From Methanosarcina vacuolata Z-761 (GTDB lineage: Archaea > Halobacteriota > Methanosarcinia > Methanosarcinales > Methanosarcinaceae): 64,000 nucleotides of DNA. Below the pieces are notes generated by a model, which made no database searches, was not told the DNA's origin, and saw only the letters and a list, made by a program, of their open reading frames with translations. The position numbers and the translations under genes were made by a program. The DNA lies in NCBI RefSeq assembly GCF_000969905.1, contig NZ_CP009520.1, positions 2,046,001 to 2,110,000 on the forward strand. The letters are read 5' to 3'. Each line of letters starts with the position of its first letter. Position 1 is the stretch's first letter. Below, one piece after another: positions 1,506-58,829 of this stretch.

Positions 1506-3033
1506 GTAACTATTCAGGTAGCCTTGTTAAGGCTACACAATTTTTCCTCGTTCCGAGGAAAAATTGGATATAAAATGAACCATTTTCTTCCTTGATGAAA
1601 CGTGAAGAGATTCTTGCTTTGTGTGCTTCAAACCCTGAAGTTATTGCTTATATTATAAGTCTTGAATCTCAAATTAAAGACCTCACTGAAAGATTGCAAG
1701 TTTTAGAATTTCGCTTAAATCAAAACAGCCGAAACAGCAGTAAACCTCCTTCTAGTGACTATATTTCCAAAGGAAAACCTAATCCAAAGAGTCTCCGTAA
1801 ACAGAGTGGCAAGAAACCTGGAGGTCAAGAAGGTCATCCCGGGACAACTCTCGAAATGGTTGATAATCCTGATTAGGTAATAGAGCATTCTTTGAACTGT
1901 TGCGAAGAATGTGGACATAATCTTAATAATGTTGAAGTTAAAGCTTATGAGAAAAGACAGGTTTTTGATATTCCCCCTGTAAATCTTATTGTTACAGAAC
2001 ATCAAAGTCAGATTAAGATCTGTCCTTGCTGTGGAAGGTTAAATAAAGCTGAATTTCCAGAATCAGTAAATTCCCCAGTTCAATATGGTCCTAATATCGT
2101 AGCTTCAGCAATTTACTTTAAAAATCACCATTTCATTCCTTATAAAAGGATTTCTGAATTGTTTCATGATGTAATGGGGATAAAAATCAGTTCTGCTACC
2201 ATTATTGAAGCAGAAAGAGAATGTTTCCAGAACCTTGAAGAATTTGAAAACGTAATTCGAGAAAAGTTACTCTCTTCTCCTGTTATCCATTGTGATGAAA
2301 CTGGAATGAAAGTTCACGGAAAAAGACATTGGCTTCATGTAGCTTCTACTGACAAATACACTTGTTATTTTGCTCATCCGAAAAGAGGATCAGAAGCTAT
2401 TGATGCTATGGGAATTCTTCCAGAGTTTAAAGGGGTAGCAGTTCATGATGGATGGAAACCTTACAACGGTTATAATTGTGATCATGCTCTTTGCAATGCT
2501 CATCTCCAAAGAGAACTTATTGGAATTGAGGAGAGTTATAAACAGCAATGGGCTAAAGATATGAATGAGCTGTTATCTGAAATGAAAAAGTATACTGATG
2601 AGTGCAAAGAGCAGGGCAAATATCTGGATTTTGAACAAGTTAAGGCATTAGAAAAAAGGTTCGATACTGTAGTCGCGAAAGGAATTGAAGAAAATCCACC
2701 TTCTCTAAATCCTGAAAGACAAGGAAAACGTGGTATGTATCCAAAAACCAAAGCAAGGAATCTGCTTGATAGGTTTATAGAACATAAAGAAAAGATTCTG
2801 AGATTCCTGAAAGACTTGAAAGTTCCGTTTGAGAATAATCAAGCAGAAAGAGATGTCAGGATGATGAAACTACAGCAGAAAATATCAGGAACTTTCAGAA
2901 CTACACGGGGAGCGGAAGCTTTCTGCAGAATTAGAGCATATATTTCCACAATAAGAAAGAATGGTTTACCTGTTTTAGAGGGTATTCTTGCGGCGCTCAA
3001 AGGAGCGCCGCTAGCTATACCCTGAATAGTTAC
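1506..3033 (+). mobile_element. IS66-family insertion sequence, complete
   Basis: A 1528-bp element. The left inverted repeat is gtaactattcaggta (1506-1520) and the right one is its complement with one extra base (3018-3033). Just inside the left end are two back-to-back perfect hairpins, 1518-1536 and 1538-1566 (13-bp stem, 3-base loop). Another 9-bp-stem hairpin lies near the right end at 2990-3011. Such hairpins upstream of a transposase commonly block read-in transcription or sequester the start region. It contains a single transposase frame with a TAG, without the accessory orfs of proteobacterial IS66. Flanking 8-bp duplications are present. Confidence 0.88.
1595..3025 (+). CDS. IS66-family transposase with one in-frame TAG
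   Basis: DDE transposase. The N-terminal part (1595-1873) has the coiled-coil, then the NSSKPPSSD motif and KKPGGQEGHPG. After a TAG at 1874-1876 the same frame continues without a gap through the zinc-finger region (CCEECGHNL, later ICPCCGRL) and the catalytic core. Acidic residues appear in VIHCDETGMK, AVHDGWKPY and NNQAERDVRM. The amber replaces a residue in a VDNPD-x-VIEH context where relatives usually have Glu, a single-base change from GAG. In Methanosarcina a UAG can be decoded as pyrrolysine, so the gene may be functional through read-through, or may be a simple nonsense mutant. Confidence 0.85.
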
Positions 3034-3173
3034 GATTTTTTAAACTATTTTTCTTATTGGTTGATGGGTACTGTATGGTTTCAAATGATTGAAAATTTAC
3101 TTGCTCAACCGTAGATGGAGAAATTCTTATCCCCCATAACTACACAAAATCTATTTTTCTGATAGGCTTTGAG

Positions 3174-3245
3174 TTGCCAAATTTCTTTTTTAAATTCATC
3201 TTAAAACTTCCCTCCACGCCCGCATGCTCAAGAAGTGAGCAAATA
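3174..3245. repeat. dispersed repeat R1, copy 2
   Basis: Direct copy of 671-741; see there. It lies about 130 bases beyond the right end of the IS66 copy. Confidence 0.65.
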
Positions 3246-3341
3246 TTAGAAGGTTGCTGGCAAGAAGCAAAGGCTGCCATAAAAAGTGTTTTATTAAGGG
3301 CTCTTCGCCGTTCTCTATGGATAAAAATGAAGAGAAATTGA

Positions 3342-3437
3342 ATGCAAAAATACACCTGTAAGAGAGGCAGGAATTGTGGACTCAATATGGACTTTCAGAG
3401 GACTGTTGACATTCATGTGTTTTAAACATCAATCGAA
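3342..3437. repeat. dispersed repeat R2, copy 1
   Basis: About 96 bp that recur in direct orientation at 20868-20964, sharing blocks such as atgcaaaaatacacctg, agagaggcaggaatt and aacatcaatc. No coding capacity is conserved. It is probably the end of an old insertion element or a MITE. Confidence 0.7.
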
Positions 3438-3653
3438 TAAAGATAGACCATTAATAATATAGTCCACTTCGAAAATCGGTAGATGAAAAGCAAGATAAAT
3501 GTGTTTTTATCATTTGGAAGTCAGTCTGATAGAAACTATTGAATATAGAGACGTTCCAGAATATTAGAGTCGATGTACTAGATTTCCAGAAAGATGTTTA
3601 TATTTTCAGATAAAGATATAATTATACTACTTTTTGTTCAGGAGGGGTAAAAT

Positions 3654-5135
3654 ATGACTGATTTTAAGAAAAACTTGGGAAAAGAAGAGATTTCTGACGA
3701 AAATACCTCTATCAAAGCTAAAGACAAAGATCCAGAGGAAGAAATTAAAAAGGGAACAGGAAAAGAAATAGAAATCGAAACAAAAAATCACAGAACTCTA
3801 TTTGAAAGGTACGAACAGCGCCTGAAAGATCTGGATCCGGAGCTTATCACCCCTGAAGATGAGATTGCTTTAAAGGAAGCTTTTATACATGCAAAGGAGA
3901 TTTTTGAGCCAGAGGAACTGGTAAGCTGGTTCACAGTTAAAGCCGAGCCTTTTTACAGGTCCGTATCATGGAAAGTGCTCCTTCCCCTCTATGAAGAACT
4001 GCTTGGTATTGTGGAAAAAAACACTGGACCCGAAAGTCCGGAAACTGCTTCTGTACTGAATGGGCTTGCAGGAATCTACCGATATATGGAGAATTATGAA
4101 GAAGCCCTCAAGTTTTTTTTAAGGGCCTTAAAAATTCGTGAAAATCTCCCAGACCAGCCCAGACCTGAAACCGGGAATACGCTCAGTGAGCTTGGAATTC
4201 TTTATACTCTCATGAATCGGCGTGAAGAAGCTCTTTCGTTCTATACCCGGGCACTGGAGATCCAGAAAAAATTCCTTAACCCTAGAAATCTCGGTGCTGT
4301 CAGGACCCTGAACAGGACGGCTTTTTTTTATAAGGGGCTGGAAAAACCCGAGAAAGCTGAAGAATGCTTCATGCAGGCTCTCAAACTTCTTGAAAAGCTT
4401 CAGGAGCAGGAACCGGACAACCGCGTGGTTATGGGATACAGAGCCGGGACCCTGAATAACATGGGTGTTCTGCTCTCGGAAATGGGCAAACTTGACGAAG
4501 CTGAAGACAGGTATGGGCAGGCTTTAAAGCTTCAGGAAAAGGTTTACGGTCCTGAACACCCGCAAGTGGCCCAGACTTTGAACAACCTTGCCCTGCTTTA
4601 TTTCCAGACCACAAGGTATGAGAAAGCCTTGATCCTCTATACACAGTCCCTCGAAATTATGGAAAAACTCGGAAAAACCGAGCATACTGGCTTTGCTACA
4701 ACCCTGAACAACCTGGCAGGTGTATACGTCCAGAAAGGCCGCAACGAAAAAGCCCTGGAACTCTATACAAGAGCTCTCGAAATCCGGGAACGTGTCCTTG
4801 GCCCTGACGACCCTGACGTTGCCAAGACTCTAAACAACATGGGCGAACTCTACAGGATCCTCGGACAGCACAAAAAAGCACTTCCTCTCTACACCCGCGC
4901 CCTCAAGATCTACGAAACGACCCTGGGCCCGACACATCCAGATGTCGGCACAACCCTGAACAATCTCGCAGGCCTCCACGAAAGCATGGGTGAATACGAA
5001 ACCGCAATCAATATCTACGAAAAAGCCCTCGATATAATCGAAAAAGAGTACGGACCTGAACATCCTTATTTCAAAATCACACGGAATAATTTAATTGGCC
5101 TGTATGAGAAAATGGAGAGAAGCTGGCGGAAATAA
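3654..5135 (+). CDS. tetratricopeptide-repeat protein (kinesin-light-chain type)
   Basis: A 493-residue soluble protein. Residues ~1-45 are charged and probably disordered. From ~residue 110 to the end it is made of about eight 42-residue TPR units with the signature TLNNLAxLYxxxGxYEKALxLYTRALEI and intervening ExxxGPxHPDV, the TPR_12/kinesin-light-chain pattern. Such repeats form a superhelical scaffold for protein binding; no enzymatic domain is fused, so the partner is unknown. It has no signal peptide. The start has a strong ribosome-binding site (caggaggggt). It stands alone, with a long gap after it. TPR proteins of this kind are numerous in Methanosarcina. Confidence 0.85.
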   Translation: MTDFKKNLGKEEISDENTSIKAKDKDPEEEIKKGTGKEIEIETKNHRTLFERYEQRLKDLDPELITPEDEIALKEAFIHAKEIFEPEELVSWFTVKAEPFYRSVSWKVLLPLYEELLGIVEKNTGPESPETASVLNGLAGIYRYMENYEEALKFFLRALKIRENLPDQPRPETGNTLSELGILYTLMNRREEALSFYTRALEIQKKFLNPRNLGAVRTLNRTAFFYKGLEKPEKAEECFMQALKLLEKLQEQEPDNRVVMGYRAGTLNNMGVLLSEMGKLDEAEDRYGQALKLQEKVYGPEHPQVAQTLNNLALLYFQTTRYEKALILYTQSLEIMEKLGKTEHTGFATTLNNLAGVYVQKGRNEKALELYTRALEIRERVLGPDDPDVAKTLNNMGELYRILGQHKKALPLYTRALKIYETTLGPTHPDVGTTLNNLAGLHESMGEYETAINIYEKALDIIEKEYGPEHPYFKITRNNLIGLYEKMERSWRK

Positions 5136-12974: not shown

Positions 12975-13196
12975 TCACAAAGGACAGATCATCTTTTTCT
13001 GACTTTTTCTGACTTGGAAATAACTCCAGGCTTTTGGATGATCAATCACTTGCTCTCGTAAACAATGTTGGAGATAAGATATTATGAATCTATTCCTTAA
13101 CCTGGATATCGAGTGTAAAAAATGAGTTTCTATATACTCCTCGATTGAAGCGTACTCAAAAAGGGATAGTAAAGCTGTAGGATTAACCTCAAATAA
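12975..13196 (-). other. orphan coding-like fragment next to an intron fragment
   Basis: An ORF on this strand runs from 13265 to 12975, but its first ~23 residues are encoded by group II intron sequence. The rest (EVNPTALLSLFEYASIEEYI then RLRNRFIISYLQHCLRE) reads like protein, yet I recognise no family. It is probably the relic of a gene or transposase cut by the intron fragment. Confidence 0.3.
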
Positions 13197-13540
13197 CGTG
13201 AATACATTAGAAACCATCTTAAACCGATAATCATTTGTCCATTTGTCACATAATGTCACAAACACATTACAGCCTGATTCTGTTCCTTTTGGTTAAAGTG
13301 TATCAACCTGCTTTCGCTTATTTCACTTCACGATTCTTACGATGGTTCACTTTACGTTCCTCATGGTATCTTGACCCTAACAATTATCAAAGCCAGGTTC
13401 CTTGAGTTCTTGATATTGTCATATGAGCTTCACACACAAACATTACCAGTTTTGAATGTCACAGTATGATTGCCTCAAATGGAAAAGGTAGCGCGTATGA
13501 CGCAATTCGCAGTATATCTTCTTGCCGCACTTGCCTTGCC
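13197..13540 (-). mobile_element. group II intron fragment (5' domain only)
   Basis: On the minus strand this begins gtgcggcaagaag and matches the 5' region of the complete intron at 33640-36048 and the fragment at 58195-58580 over about 340 bases, including ccatttgag, the gtgaagc stretch and ggacaaatg. No reverse transcriptase or domains V/VI follow. It is a 5' fragment, left by deletion or incomplete retrohoming-like events. Confidence 0.75.
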
Positions 13541-19692: not shown

Positions 19693-20202
19693 TCATGCGC
19701 AATCTTGGTCGCAGATGACTATGCAGTCGGCAGAGAAGTCGTTTGCGAAATCGTCATCGTCACAGTTTTCACATTCAGAACAGTTTTCACATTCGGAACA
19801 GTTTTCACATTCAGAACAGTTTTCACATTCGGAACAGTTTTTACAGCACTCAGCACAGTTTTCACATTCGGAACAGTTTTTACAGCACTCAGCACAGTTT
19901 TCACATTCAGAACAGTTTTTACAGCACTCAGCACAGTTTTCACATTCGGAACAGTTTTTACAGCACTCACCATTGCAACTCTGGCCACAGACATCTGCAC
20001 ATTCGTCACAGCAGTTTCCTTCACACTCTGCGCTGTTACAGTTGCCATTGGATGAGATATATTGATAATTATAATCAGTAGAGTCAGCAGTGGATTTCGT
20101 AGCTGGACATGCCGAAGCTGCAGAAATTCCTAATATCAACAACATTAATACAACAGAAACAGATGCCGTAATTTTCCATATTGACTTTCTATTATGATTC
20201 AT
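19693..20202 (-). CDS. secreted cysteine-repeat protein
   Basis: 169 residues from the ATG at 20200-20202, which has an ideal aggagg 6 bases upstream. Residues ~1-35 are a signal peptide (SVVLMLLILGISAASA). After a variable section with Cys pairs (CEGNCCDECADVCGQSCNGE), four 13-residue repeats ECCKNCSECENCA run in tandem. Then come several six-residue ECENCS units and an acidic tail DDDDFANDF. About a third of the mature protein is Cys. Candidate roles are metal binding (soft or Fe-S-forming metals) or a disulfide-linked surface polymer; the CxxC spacing resembles metallothionein-like and small Fe-S binding repeats. No known family. The repeats are also repeated at DNA level, so copy number may vary. 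Confidence 0.8.
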   Translation of the reverse strand: MNHNRKSIWKITASVSVVLMLLILGISAASACPATKSTADSTDYNYQYISSNGNCNSAECEGNCCDECADVCGQSCNGECCKNCSECENCAECCKNCSECENCAECCKNCSECENCAECCKNCSECENCSECENCSECENCSECENCDDDDFANDFSADCIVICDQDCA

Positions 20203-20996
20203 TTTTTTCCTCCTTATTCCATTGTAAATAACCACAACAATAATAACTGGATAAATTAATATATAAACATACTTTCTTATTTATACTTTTATAAAACTCA
20301 AAAATGGAATTTAAAGCTTTATAACTCTTCATTTTAGTACATGAAAGAGTATAATGTTGTAGATTGTGCGTATCTATACTTTTTATTAGTTAAAAACAAA
20401 ATAGAGGTCTTTCTGGAGAGTCTTATCTCCTAAAAAGTTAATATAGTTCACCATATTCAAAAAAACCGGTAGGATACTATTTTTTTTACACATGCATGTG
20501 TTATTAAGACCACATACCCTTTTTAAAGCTATAATTGTCTTTTTTTAATTAAAAGGTGGCATAATAGCTGCAATATGTGTCTCTTTATTATATTGCCCGT
20601 TTATTTTACTTGGAGTCCGTGTAAAGCCAAGCCTTACTCACGCCATGTTGAAATAAATTTAAATATTTAGTTGTATGGTCAGATATTTTAACAGGTCACA
20701 TCAAAACAGTTTTGATTTCTACAATTGGGTGATTTTCTATCTCAATATTCCTCTCGTATACAGAATTCATTAATTTTCATTAATCAAAATATCTTATTTG
20801 CTATATTCTCGCTATAATTCCTCTTTCGTTACAGCTCTGATTTCCTCCTCTAGTGTTGAGTCAAGAAATGCAAAAATACACCTGCAAGAGAGGCAGGAAT
20901 TGCAGAGTCAATATGGACTTTAAAGGAACTGCTGACATCAGGTGTTTTAAAACATCAATCAAATACAAATTGGCCATAGGTACATTTATACGTACA
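20203..20996. other. AT-rich intergenic region with repeat R2
   Basis: The promoter of the cysteine-repeat gene probably lies near 20255-20270 (tatgtttatatatt on the minus strand). R2 copy 2 lies at 20868-20964. A MITE-end-like stretch occurs near 20700-20730. No gene is recognised. Confidence 0.45.
20868..20964. repeat. dispersed repeat R2, copy 2
   Basis: Direct copy of 3342-3437 with about 85% identity; see there. Confidence 0.7.
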
Positions 20997-33300: not shown

Positions 33301-33534
33301 AAGTGGCTATTTTGAATAACCCTGATTTATAGTTATGGTTATTTCTGATGGGGAAGTTCGAAGGGAGGTGGTTTTTGAGATCTAACAAGAGGCGAAATAT
33401 AAGGGAAATAAAGAAAGTTTTCTTAACGCAAATTTGTAATTCAGCATAGTGTCAAGGCCGATTTTTCTTCATTTTAGCCGGATTACTTTTCCCCATCTTT
33501 TGATATGAATTTTACTCAATTTTTCATAAACTTG
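33301..33534. other. intergenic region before the istB remnant
   Basis: About 230 bases with no gene. On the minus strand the istB frame, past its TAG stop, continues for 21 codons (QVYEKLSKIHIKRWGKVIRLK) before TGA. This is probably chance, but is noted because TAG can be sense in this genus. Confidence 0.35.
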
Positions 33535-33679
33535 CTATAAATTATTGACAAATATATTTCCTGTTTTAATTCCCTGCATCTTCTTTTCTTTCAGCCTGTA
33601 ACTTTCTCCTTTGATGTTAATCGTCGCACTATGCTGAAGGTCAGCTAAGTCGGGGAGATTACTCTCCCTTTCTCGCCTA

Positions 33680-33714
33680 AGAACTGTACGTGAGACTTTC
33701 ACCTCATACAGCTC
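33680..33714 (-). ncRNA. group II intron domain V
   Basis: A 34-35-base hairpin with the conserved internal loop gaggtgaaagtctc and a 3' ...acgtacagttct pairing to the 5' gagctgtatg. This is the catalytic heart of the ribozyme; it begins about one base after the TGA of the reverse transcriptase gene. Confidence 0.88.
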
Positions 33715-35521
33715 AAGCATCTCCTAACCCTTGTGTTGGGCAGCAGTTATTTGATTTGGAGTTAGTTGCGTGGTATTGTCTATGACAGTGTGCATGCAAA
33801 TAGATTAAGTTGGATGTTCTGTTATCTTCGTGGCTTCCATTCTTGTGATGTAGAGGTCTTTCTACTGCATCAGTATTAATGTCAATTGGAAAATTGCAGA
33901 TAGGACATATGCCTTCTTGGTTATCCCACACTTTCTTGAATTTTCCTGAAAGCTTTCTTAAGCCTTGATTGTATTTGCGTTCAGAATAGTATCCTTTGTC
34001 GAGGTAAGGATTTATACCTAATGTTAGTTTGATGTGTCTAACTATCTTTTTATTTGATAAAAGCTTCAGTTGGTTTGTTTCAGTTGAAAATACCCAATGT
34101 CTTGCTCCCTTGGTATGCCAGTATTTCCGACTTATCCAGTGATGGGATCTACCTGGGTGTCTTCTCTTGGCCCACTTCCATGTCATACTCCAGATTCTTT
34201 TATCCATTTCAGAGAATATTTCTTTGGATACCACGCCTTGATGGTAATTAGACCATCCAGTTATGATTGGGTTAAGAGTTTGGATTAATTTTTCTTGTGT
34301 CCAAGGTTTGCCATTCTTAATGACATCACTGATTTTCTCAGTGACTTTCTGAATGGATTTTTTGGATGGTTTGATAAGAAGCTTTCCTTTGTATTTTCTG
34401 AAATTCCAGCCTAAAAAGTCAAAACCATCGTTAATATGGGTAATTAGTGTTTTTTCTTCCGATAATTCCAGACCTTTATCCTTTAGGAATATTTTAATCA
34501 GTTCTTTGGCTTCTTCCGCTATTTCCTCAGTTTTTGCAGTAACAATGAAGTCATCTGCATACCTTACAAAATTTACGTTATGTTTATCACGTTGAAATTT
34601 TGTTATTCTTCCACTTTTTCCGCGATGATATTTATTTGCCAATATACCTTCAATCCCATCTAAGGTCATGTTGGCAAGAATTGGGGATATGATACCACCT
34701 TGCGGTGTACCTTTTTTGGTCGGAAAGAGGTTTTGTTTAAAAACGAAGCCTGCTTTAAGGAATTGTTTAAGAACTGATTTGTCCATTGGAATATTGTCAA
34801 GTAACCATTGGTGACTAATGTTATCGAAGCAACCTTTTATATCTCCTTCCAGTATCCAGGATGCAGAGAACTTTTGACATGTGCATCCAAATATTTGTTC
34901 GCATGCGTCATGTGTACTTCTGAATTTTCTAAATCCAAAGGAGTGTTTGTCTGCCGTAGCTTCTGAAATCGGGTTAAGTGCTAATGCATATAATGATTGC
35001 ATAGCTCTGTCGTACATGGTTGGGATACCTAAAGGTCGTTTCTTTGACTTCCCATATTTTTCAATATGAACTCTTTTTAATGGTTTGGCTTTATATCTTC
35101 TGTTAGTTAGACTAAGGGAGGCTTTCATCTTGGCGTCGGGAGTTTTCCACAATTCACCATCGATTCCTGCCGTTTTCTTACCTTTGTTCTGAATTACCTT
35201 TCTGACAGCTAACAATTTGGCGTAGAAAGAGTGGGTTAACAAATAGCTTAATCTTTTAACTAAGTTCCATTTGCCTTTAAAAACCGCTTTCGTAATCCTG
35301 ACTTGTAGCCTATTAACATGTGTTTCAACTGCTTTCCAATTGATATTGTTCCATCGAAATTTCAGTTGTTTGTTAGTGAGCTTCTCGTTGATTGGTTCAG
35401 CTTGTTCACTATAACAGCCAGTCTCTCTGTTTGTTTTATTCCATAAGAGATTGACAGCAAGTGTTTCTGCTTTCTGAATCAGCGTATTTGAATGACTCCC
35501 TTTCATAGGACATACTTTCAT
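33713..35521 (-). CDS. ltrA: group II intron reverse transcriptase/maturase with HNH endonuclease
   Basis: 602 residues, full length. The reverse transcriptase domain shows KKRPLGIPTMYDRAMQ, EGDIKGCFDNISH, KGTPQGGIISPILANM and the catalytic VRYADDFIV. The maturase X domain follows (GWSNYHQGVVSKEIF). The C-terminal HNH endonuclease has CPICNFPI, RPLHHKNGSHEDN and LIYLHAHCHRQYH. It assists splicing of its own intron RNA and performs target-primed reverse transcription. All key motifs are intact, so the intron may be mobile. The start is the ATG at 35519-35521. Confidence 0.95.
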   Translation of the reverse strand: MKVCPMKGSHSNTLIQKAETLAVNLLWNKTNRETGCYSEQAEPINEKLTNKQLKFRWNNINWKAVETHVNRLQVRITKAVFKGKWNLVKRLSYLLTHSFYAKLLAVRKVIQNKGKKTAGIDGELWKTPDAKMKASLSLTNRRYKAKPLKRVHIEKYGKSKKRPLGIPTMYDRAMQSLYALALNPISEATADKHSFGFRKFRSTHDACEQIFGCTCQKFSASWILEGDIKGCFDNISHQWLLDNIPMDKSVLKQFLKAGFVFKQNLFPTKKGTPQGGIISPILANMTLDGIEGILANKYHRGKSGRITKFQRDKHNVNFVRYADDFIVTAKTEEIAEEAKELIKIFLKDKGLELSEEKTLITHINDGFDFLGWNFRKYKGKLLIKPSKKSIQKVTEKISDVIKNGKPWTQEKLIQTLNPIITGWSNYHQGVVSKEIFSEMDKRIWSMTWKWAKRRHPGRSHHWISRKYWHTKGARHWVFSTETNQLKLLSNKKIVRHIKLTLGINPYLDKGYYSERKYNQGLRKLSGKFKKVWDNQEGICPICNFPIDINTDAVERPLHHKNGSHEDNRTSNLIYLHAHCHRQYHATNSKSNNCCPTQGLGDA

Positions 35522-36213
35522 TCTTACGTTTTGATACCATAGAGTAAGTCAGCATCCTTTCGGATTAGGGCAAATTTGGAACCCTTATACAATTGATTAC
35601 AAATTGTCATTCGCTTGCTACTCCCTTCCTCTACCCTCTATGTCATTGTTATCCTTTGCAGGATTCCTACCCTAGGGAACATATAGGGCTTACCAAGTTC
35701 TATAACATGAATAATTATGAATACCTTAGAAGCCATCTCTAAGCCGAGAGTTCTTTGTCCATTTCCCATTACGTCGAATAAGCCATAATGGTCTGACTCT
35801 TCACCTTTTGGTTCAAGTGTATCAGTCTAATTTCACTTGTCACTTGTTACGACTCTTACAATGGTTCACATTACGTTCTTCATAGTATTCTTATCCTAAC
35901 AGATGATTTAGATTAGACTTCCAAATTTCTCCATATTGTCCTATGAGCTTCACACCTTGACGTTATCATCAACGCATGTCATAGTAGGATTATCCCAAAT
36001 GGAAGGGATAGCATTTCTGCAATTCATGCTTTAGCTTTCTTGTCGCACAGTCCTATCAAGTACAGCGACCGCTATCACATGGTCCTTAAATATCTCCCCA
36101 CATTCTCCCAATGACTTATTCGATGTTAAGGTCGTTTGCTTCTTTTCATAACGTCTTGAGATCAGCTGAAATAGGCAGTGATCTCCTTCTTCGTCAAATG
36201 GGAGATATTTAGG

Positions 36214-58092: not shown

Positions 58093-58829
58093 AATAGCAG
58101 TCATATGTTTATTTTCCTGAGTATAGGCAGACCGATGCATAGTGTCCGAAAGTATATAGCCTTGCAAAAAGAAATATCCGACACTTATGGAAGCATTTAG
58201 GGCTTACCAAGTTTCTATACTGCATAATGTGAATACCTTAGAAGCTATCTATAAACCGAGAATCATTTGTCCACTTGCCATAATGTCCGCAGACACATTA
58301 CAGCCTGATTTCGTACCTTTTGGTTTAAGCATCAACCTGTTTTCGCTTATTCCACTTCACGATTCTTACGATGGTTCACTTTACGTTCTTCATAGGGGTT
58401 CACCCTACGTTCTTCATAGTATTCTTATCCTGACCAATTATCAAAGCCAGATTCCTTGAGTTATTGATATTGTCATGTGAACTTCACAAAAAAGTTACCA
58501 TTTGTGAATGTCACACTAAGATTACCTCAAATGGAAAAGGTAGCCTATAACGCAATTCATAGTATAGCTTCTTGTCGCACCTGCAGAATGTGGGATTCTA
58601 TTTATCAACAACATTTATCAACATTTGTCAACAGTTTATATTTATTTCATAAATACTCCGTTGCTTGCAGCGGAGTGCGTTAGTGCAAATTTGATTTCTA
58701 AATGCAAGCAGTCTGACGGTTCTTACTCCCGAAAGTAATTCTATGTTGACAAAAGATATATATGATAGATATAATTTCTGTATTTCATTTTTCAAAAGAA
58801 ATTACAGCAGGCAGTAGAAGATAGATAGC
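58093..58829. other. intergenic region with an intron fragment
   Basis: Holds the group II intron fragment at 58195-58580. Beyond it is an AT-rich stretch with a TATA-like run (gatatatatgatagatat) near 58756-58775 that may belong to azlC. Confidence 0.5.
58195..58580 (-). mobile_element. group II intron fragment (5' domain only)
   Basis: On the minus strand it starts gtgcgacaagaag and matches the first ~385 bases of the complete intron at 33640-36048, including the ccatttgag block. The reverse transcriptase and domains V/VI are absent. Its 5' exon flank ends in ...attctgcag. Confidence 0.78.

Follow-up and report, generated by a model that had tools for sequence, protein, structure and literature searches.

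A group II intron inside an IS21 istB gene of Methanosarcina, with signs of recent movement

A reverse transcriptase gene interrupts the remnant of an istB gene on the minus strand of the window, the whole 64,000-nucleotide stretch of Methanosarcina vacuolata Z-761 DNA that was analyzed. The locus raises the question of whether a group II intron sits in this insertion-sequence gene so precisely that its removal restores the protein, and, if so, whether such an intron targets dead mobile elements, as the initial annotation had offered as one possibility, or the istB sequence as such.

Rfam matches and comparison of copies show the interrupting element to be a complete group II intron, 2409 nucleotides long (33640..36048, minus strand), that begins with GTGCGAC and ends with GCTGAC. 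The start satisfies the 5' GUGYG pattern, and the sequence common to related copies begins at GTGCGAC and stops at the 3' end, with differing flanks on either side. Rfam model RF02012 matches the D1-D4 region (35851..36010, 63.5 bits), and RF00029, covering domains 5 and 6, matches with 60.8 bits against a cut-off of 40 and ends exactly at position 33640. Both boundaries proposed in the initial annotation (36048 and 33640) are therefore right. The conserved catalytic domain 5 is present at 33681..33714, and in the predicted fold of the last 42 nucleotides an A at -7 (position 33646) lies in an internal loop of domain 6, so that the folding agrees with the branch point assigned earlier, for which this A is the candidate.

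The intron-encoded protein (IEP; 33713..35521, minus strand) is an intact reverse transcriptase/maturase of 602 amino acids. It contains the Pfam domains RVT_N, RVT_1 and GIIM, matches TIGR04416 with 358.6 bits, and carries a C-terminal HNH-like segment that scores below threshold. The nearest relative of solved structure is the maturase in PDB entry 6me0 (E=2.2e-165), which presumably belongs to a CL-type cyanobacterial intron. The reading frame is open, and dN/dS is 0.16-0.17 against two Methanococcoides copies, measured over their longest open stretches (345 and 339 codons). In class, the element is an ordinary mobile group II intron.

The flanking DNA is istB. The 5' exon (36049..36207, minus strand) matches Pfam IstB_IS21 and loses its homology to the istB of another Methanosarcina genome, G094, at 36207; the 3' exon (33535..33639), delimited by the joined frame and by intronless copies, encodes the IstB C-terminus through the stop codon. 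It is followed by the right end of the IS21 element (..CCTTGACA; 33450..33534), placed by alignment to intact copies. When 36049 is joined to 33639, a single frame reads VAVLDRT+LQHSATINIKG. The joined exons (84 amino acids) match positions 167-237 of IstB_IS21 with E=2.6e-22 and 79.9 bits, compared with 45.5 bits for the 44 amino acids of the 5' exon by itself, and the two exons are contiguous in the profile. Excision in silico thus restores the IstB frame as had been claimed, and protein homology backs the splice sites. All 18 distinct intronless istB copies that span the junction, from related genomes and from the window genome, align across it without a gap (48 nucleotides displayed) and so run uninterrupted at the same place; five more distinct istB fragments stop short of the junction and lie outside this count.

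The host gene is truncated and the arrangement is one of an element within an element, a group II intron inside the istB of an IS21, both as first described. Homology to IS21 starts only at 36207, so that istA and about the first 173 IstB codons are missing; the end of istB and the right IS end (at 33450) are what remains, in place of full istA and istB with both terminal inverted repeats and a short target duplication. Nine matches to the IstB profile occur in the window genome, four of them above the cut-off. All are partial, so the profile search found no full-length IstB in this genome.

In G094, which is represented by one assembly, the same intron occurs in another copy of IS21, again at this position of istB. 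The two introns differ by 11 mismatches in 2409 nucleotides (99.54% identical), whereas the exons are about 83-84% identical. Identity shifts exactly at both intron ends, since the exons differ right from the junction on either side. Further out, the flanks of the two copies are unrelated. Over a 3.2-kb stretch of ordinary genes, the two genomes are 88-94% identical. Because the introns are so much more alike than either the exons or the genes, insertion in one or both places postdates the divergence of the species or of the IS copies. Insertion into intronless alleles is in this sense seen by comparison, as one intron in two diverged istB copies, and these identities indicate that the intron has been recently mobile with istB as its target. 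No common exon tract surrounds it, which would fit full reverse splicing and not repair with co-conversion.

The G094 copy has an intact host. The host reference picks up again after the 2409-nucleotide insert without gain or loss of a base. With the intron left out, the IS21 has complete istA and istB genes and TGTCAAC..GTTGACA terminal repeats, and GATGG stands on both sides as a 5-bp target duplication. This IS21 (locus L134) interrupts a transposase gene whose joined flanks match DDE_Tnp_ISAZ013 with E=7.6e-40, so that G094 holds three nested elements: the intron, within IS21, within an ISAZ013-type transposase gene. One of the four IstB-profile matches in G094 exceeds the cut-off, and it is the intron-bearing istB.

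The insertion in istB was seen in two genomes only, the window genome and G094. A genome search with 40 nucleotides of exon and 520 of intron, which revealed the G094 copy, gave matches in 20 of the genus's 30 genomes, in some of them to the exon only. A pattern for the istB-site junction matched G094 alone among 185 genomes; this first pattern missed the window copy owing to its ACT codon, a variant that the pattern by design does not cover. Genome G013 has 18 full-length copies of istB, all of them uninterrupted. No vehicle was seen in plasmid, phage and viral collections, which gave only more distant relatives of the reverse transcriptase: below 60% identity among the 5000 plasmid matches listed and in 36 phage records, and 45-48% in four viral contigs. 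The best archaeal plasmid match among those listed is to a Methanomethylovorans hollandica plasmid (59.7%).

How the intron could recognize istB is suggested by its exon-binding sequences (EBS), which were located by a covariation scan for intron positions that pair better with their own exon than with shuffled exons. For EBS1, the lone outstanding site starts at intron position 269 (269-275; z=12.7 in 36 copies, with the next best at 4.4) and corresponds to TATTCGA at 35774..35780. For EBS2, one cluster links intron positions 203-207 to exon positions -13 to -9 (z=10.6 in 30 copies, six of the 36 having been dropped as truncated or with short exons) and corresponds to CAAGT at 35842..35846. 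EBS3 is the G at 35739, intron base 310, which forms a Watson-Crick pair with the first base of the 3' exon in 18 of the 18 copies whose 3' end was judged known; the next best position reaches 14. Another candidate for EBS1, AGTCT near intron position 100, was rejected because the scan gives 269-275.

In the window, EBS2 pairs with IBS2 (ACTTG, 36057..36061) at 5/5 positions and EBS3 with IBS3 (C at 33639) at 1/1, but EBS1 pairs with IBS1 (TAGGACT, 36049..36055) at only 4/7, leaving -1 and -2 unpaired. The pairing check suggested by the initial annotation therefore comes out well for two of the contacts and poorly for EBS1. A mutated EBS1 does not explain this, because the EBS1 of G094 is identical and yet pairs at 6/7 with its own exon. 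Pairing of EBS1 is at least 6/7 in 24 of 30 copies, while one copy is as low as that in the window and one is lower; beyond these 30, four copies in cas1 pair at 6 or 7 of 7 and the Methanococcoides copy L151 at 4/7. Weak EBS1 pairing is thus unusual, not unique. The EBS1-IBS1 duplex is estimated at -0.2 kcal/mol in the window, -2.5 in G094 and -5.4 for an ideal partner; four copies with good pairing range from -5 to -11. An istB whose Asp-Arg-Ile codons, part of the conserved LDR motif, read GAT CGA ATA would carry the ideal IBS1, TCGAATA. With an EBS1 match of 4/7, the window copy probably splices poorly, and the frame restored in silico need not imply good splicing of this copy.

The two hosts also differ in their state of decay. 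In a comparison of six istB sequences, 21 changes are unique to the window remnant, of which 16 are nonsynonymous and 5 synonymous, compared with 0 and 6 in G094 and 0 and 3 in L056 (p=1.4e-4 by Fisher's test, window versus G094 and L056 together). Changes were counted base by base, L137 scores none owing to a near-identical copy in the set, and three further sequences were dropped because they mismatched the start pattern. The window host has thus lost constraint and the G094 host has kept it. Decay of the window istB amounts to about 8% of 252 nucleotides, far more than in the intron, which has changed at no more than 11 positions over its full length, so the intron probably arrived in an istB that was already decaying.

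The proposal that the intron targets, or survives in, dead elements therefore holds in part. The window istB has decayed, but targeting of dead elements does not fit the G094 host, with its full istA and istB, terminal repeats and 5-bp target duplication. What the intron targets is istB as a sequence, whether the element is alive or dead. A search of 185 genomes of the order for the 14-mer TACTTGATMGAATA gave 14 matches. Within the 30 genomes of the genus it has three matches, all in istB: in G094 (occupied), in G016 (degraded) and in the window genome at C2:3404590-3404603 (an empty relic). The other 11 matches are in other genera and none is in istB. A control pattern likewise has three matches within the genus, so the search is weak by itself, and what weight it has lies in all three genus matches being istB.

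Some of these observations could be read differently. It is scarcely conceivable that the restored frame is a coincidence and that the intron lies in noncoding DNA; 72 of the 79 related copies surveyed do lack an IS21 exon, but here both exons are IstB and the contiguous profile match refutes the idea. Vertical inheritance inside a single istB, in which only the exons diverged, would account for the shared istB position. We consider it very improbable and reject it, because an intron identical at 99.54% does not fit exons at 83-84% and sampled orthologous genes at 88-94%, and because the outer loci differ where a common chromosomal neighborhood would be needed.

A more serious possibility, which we hold to be somewhat less than even, is that the window insertion is weak or off-target, the real home being a better-matched istB such as that of G094. 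The intron would have landed in the window remnant through EBS2, EBS3 and a partial EBS1, and would hardly splice there. The EBS1 score of 4/7 against 6/7 in G094 and the lack of constraint on the host speak for this, as does the commonest empty site, TAGGATT (5 of 18 copies), which pairs at 5/7 by hand count with -1.2 kcal/mol. However, the codon boundary is the same as in G094, which points to a weak homing site and not to a random one, and the mismatch at -2 is an exon change seen only in the window (ATT to ACT) that may postdate insertion. It is also possible, though unlikely, that the intron settled first in the window and that the G094 copy was made from the one there. The polarized differences are nearly even (four on the window branch, five on the G094 branch and two unclear), which would allow such a direction. 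Had the intron resided for long in a decaying locus, its reading frame should have suffered, yet it is intact; this point is tempered in that a recent date is required for just one of the two insertions.

Very probably, then, this mobile group II intron has as its cognate target a fixed istB site in one Methanosarcinaceae IS21 family. The excised intron RNA, together with the reverse transcriptase, would recognize the istB coding strand through contacts of EBS2 with IBS2 (ACTTG), EBS1 with IBS1 (ideally TCGAATA) and EBS3 with IBS3 (C). This RNA would reverse splice precisely at the boundary of IstB codons 226 and 227, after which a DNA copy would be made. Given good pairing, removal of the intron from the istB transcript would restore IstB, and the IS could keep moving. 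We infer this retrohoming chemistry, and splicing in the cell, from sequence comparison. Given its poor EBS1 match and truncated host, the window copy is probably a weakly splicing resident, although its reverse transcriptase could still act.

The same IS21 family harbors other introns. Among 79 distinct 5' intron boundaries surveyed, seven lie in this family at five positions: istA codons 5 (in two genera), 23 and 188, istB codon 226 (in two genomes), and 41 nucleotides past the istB stop codon. All seven are inserted in the sense orientation, and the four coding sites (IS21 positions 103, 157, 652 and 2007) all fall between codons by hand arithmetic. Two of the boundaries, one of them in IS21, came from loci fetched as istB loci, and the survey includes a few doubtful or nested boundaries. 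Without those two, 6 of 77 are in IS21 (p=3e-5 for at least that many, with copies that are not independent); this value assumes that IS21 makes up 0.77% of a genome, a high estimate taken from the IS21-rich G013, where about 20 copies of the 2.2-kb element occur. None of this IS21 was found in the retrieved DNA of 41 loci from the search for relatives of the IEP.

At istA codon 5 (IS21 position 103), G005 and G061 carry introns that agree at 98.2% over 565 nucleotides, against 84.5% for their IS flanks. This is a second case like istB, in a separate intron lineage and across two genera. Repeated occupation of one IS site is thus seen twice, in two genomes at the istB site and in two at istA codon 5. 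Tentatively, one Methanosarcinaceae IS21 family might be a landing ground for several intron lineages, at least two of which would re-enter their sites across species or genus borders, with swaps of EBS1 and EBS2, such as between cas1 and istB, changing the host. The IS21 would then serve both as vehicle and as multicopy target and be kept alive by splicing, a reading to which we give rather less than even weight. The intron 41 nucleotides after the stop codon of an intact istB (L056, in G015) is of another lineage, with EBS1 pairing at 7/7 and EBS2 at 5/5. In G004 (L103, contig C50, minus strand from 1596), an istB fragment starts at IS21 base 2008, the first base past the intron site. The DNA before it is not the intron of the window, and the coincidence could reflect a scar, another insertion or chance.

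The closest IEP relatives found belong to introns that reside in cas1 in Methanococcoides (L159-L162, in M. vulcani and M. alaskense; around position 4476). Their IEPs are 75-77% identical in amino acids, and their 5' RNA part is about 86% identical to the window intron. They lie in four short C-terminal remnants of cas1, and their EBS1 and EBS2 match cas1, whereas those of the window intron fit istB. The IEP reading frames of L159 and L160, the two examined, are broken. A Pfam search did not recognize the Methanococcoides exon peptide as Cas1, but a PDB sequence search did; this identity rests on the match for the L161 exons and, for the other three, on similarity. The 3' ends of cas1 recur as repeated relics. 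In a further relative, L151 (Methanococcoides sp., 2189-4540), the joined exons form one frame (..FVNVTEV^IDGDTIVISSGERVRLIGVDTPE..) that looks nuclease-like by eye.

The closest functional parallel is RmInt1 of Sinorhizobium meliloti, described (PMC4238363, PMC5894124) as a mobile group II intron that naturally targets a site in the transposase gene of the multicopy ISRm2011-2; this intron occurs also in related IS copies, and its splicing is required for IS activity. The window intron likewise resides in an IS gene and appears to represent an RmInt1-like residence in archaea. The host of RmInt1 is an IS630-family element in a bacterium, whereas that of the window intron is an IS21-family element in an archaeon. 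The HNH-like end of the window IEP, although below threshold, is another difference, because RmInt1 is reported to be without a C-terminal endonuclease domain (PMC8914252). A further difference from RmInt1 is that pairing quality varies between the two istB copies. IStrons (PMC4227781) also combine an intron-like ribozyme with an IS, but theirs is a group I ribozyme fused to the IS, in contrast to the two separable elements here.

Archaeal group II introns that encode reverse transcriptases are known from Methanosarcina and relatives (PMC8919778). Along with the nests described in PMC4424553, they share the host group, the reverse transcriptase and nested copies with the intron studied here. 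The flanking exons of those nests are reported to be without coding reading frames, whereas the exons of the window intron are a coding gene that reads on. A search of titles and abstract openings in the open-access literature found no paper on an intron in an archaeal IS21, though earlier mention elsewhere is possible. As far as this literature goes, the targeting of istB and IS21 in archaea, the comparison that reveals movement and the retuning between cas1 and istB are new. Movement of an archaeal group II intron is here caught by comparison alone, all three exon contacts can be read from natural covariation, and the insertion preserves the frame of a protein gene. Two questions become testable in a tractable methanogen: how an intron adjusts its guide bases to fit a new gene, and whether it holds an IS in check or merely rides along.

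Other intron copies and unrelated features were also observed. Two copies of the same intron family lie on the minus strand of the window at 13157-13530 and 58177-58580. They match D1-D4 and are cut off on the 3' side, with no domain 5 or 6 found in either; they resemble the 3'-truncated fragment FRE652 described for S. meliloti (PMC5894124). By eye, several introns (L064/L029, L004, L006, L052, L053 and L071) lie in or directly behind the 5' end, reverse transcriptase gene or domain 5 of other introns, and intron-in-intron nesting of this kind is already known. In G023, the 3' part of a close relative (83%) adjoins a different reverse transcriptase gene, an arrangement that may be a mosaic or a misassembly. 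Elsewhere in the window, positions 1874-1973 of the plus strand match the Rfam family PYLIS_5, a pyrrolysine insertion sequence transposase element, with 96.8 bits, and a reading frame at 19693-20235 on the minus strand encodes tandem cysteine-rich repeats (CCKNCSECENCAE).
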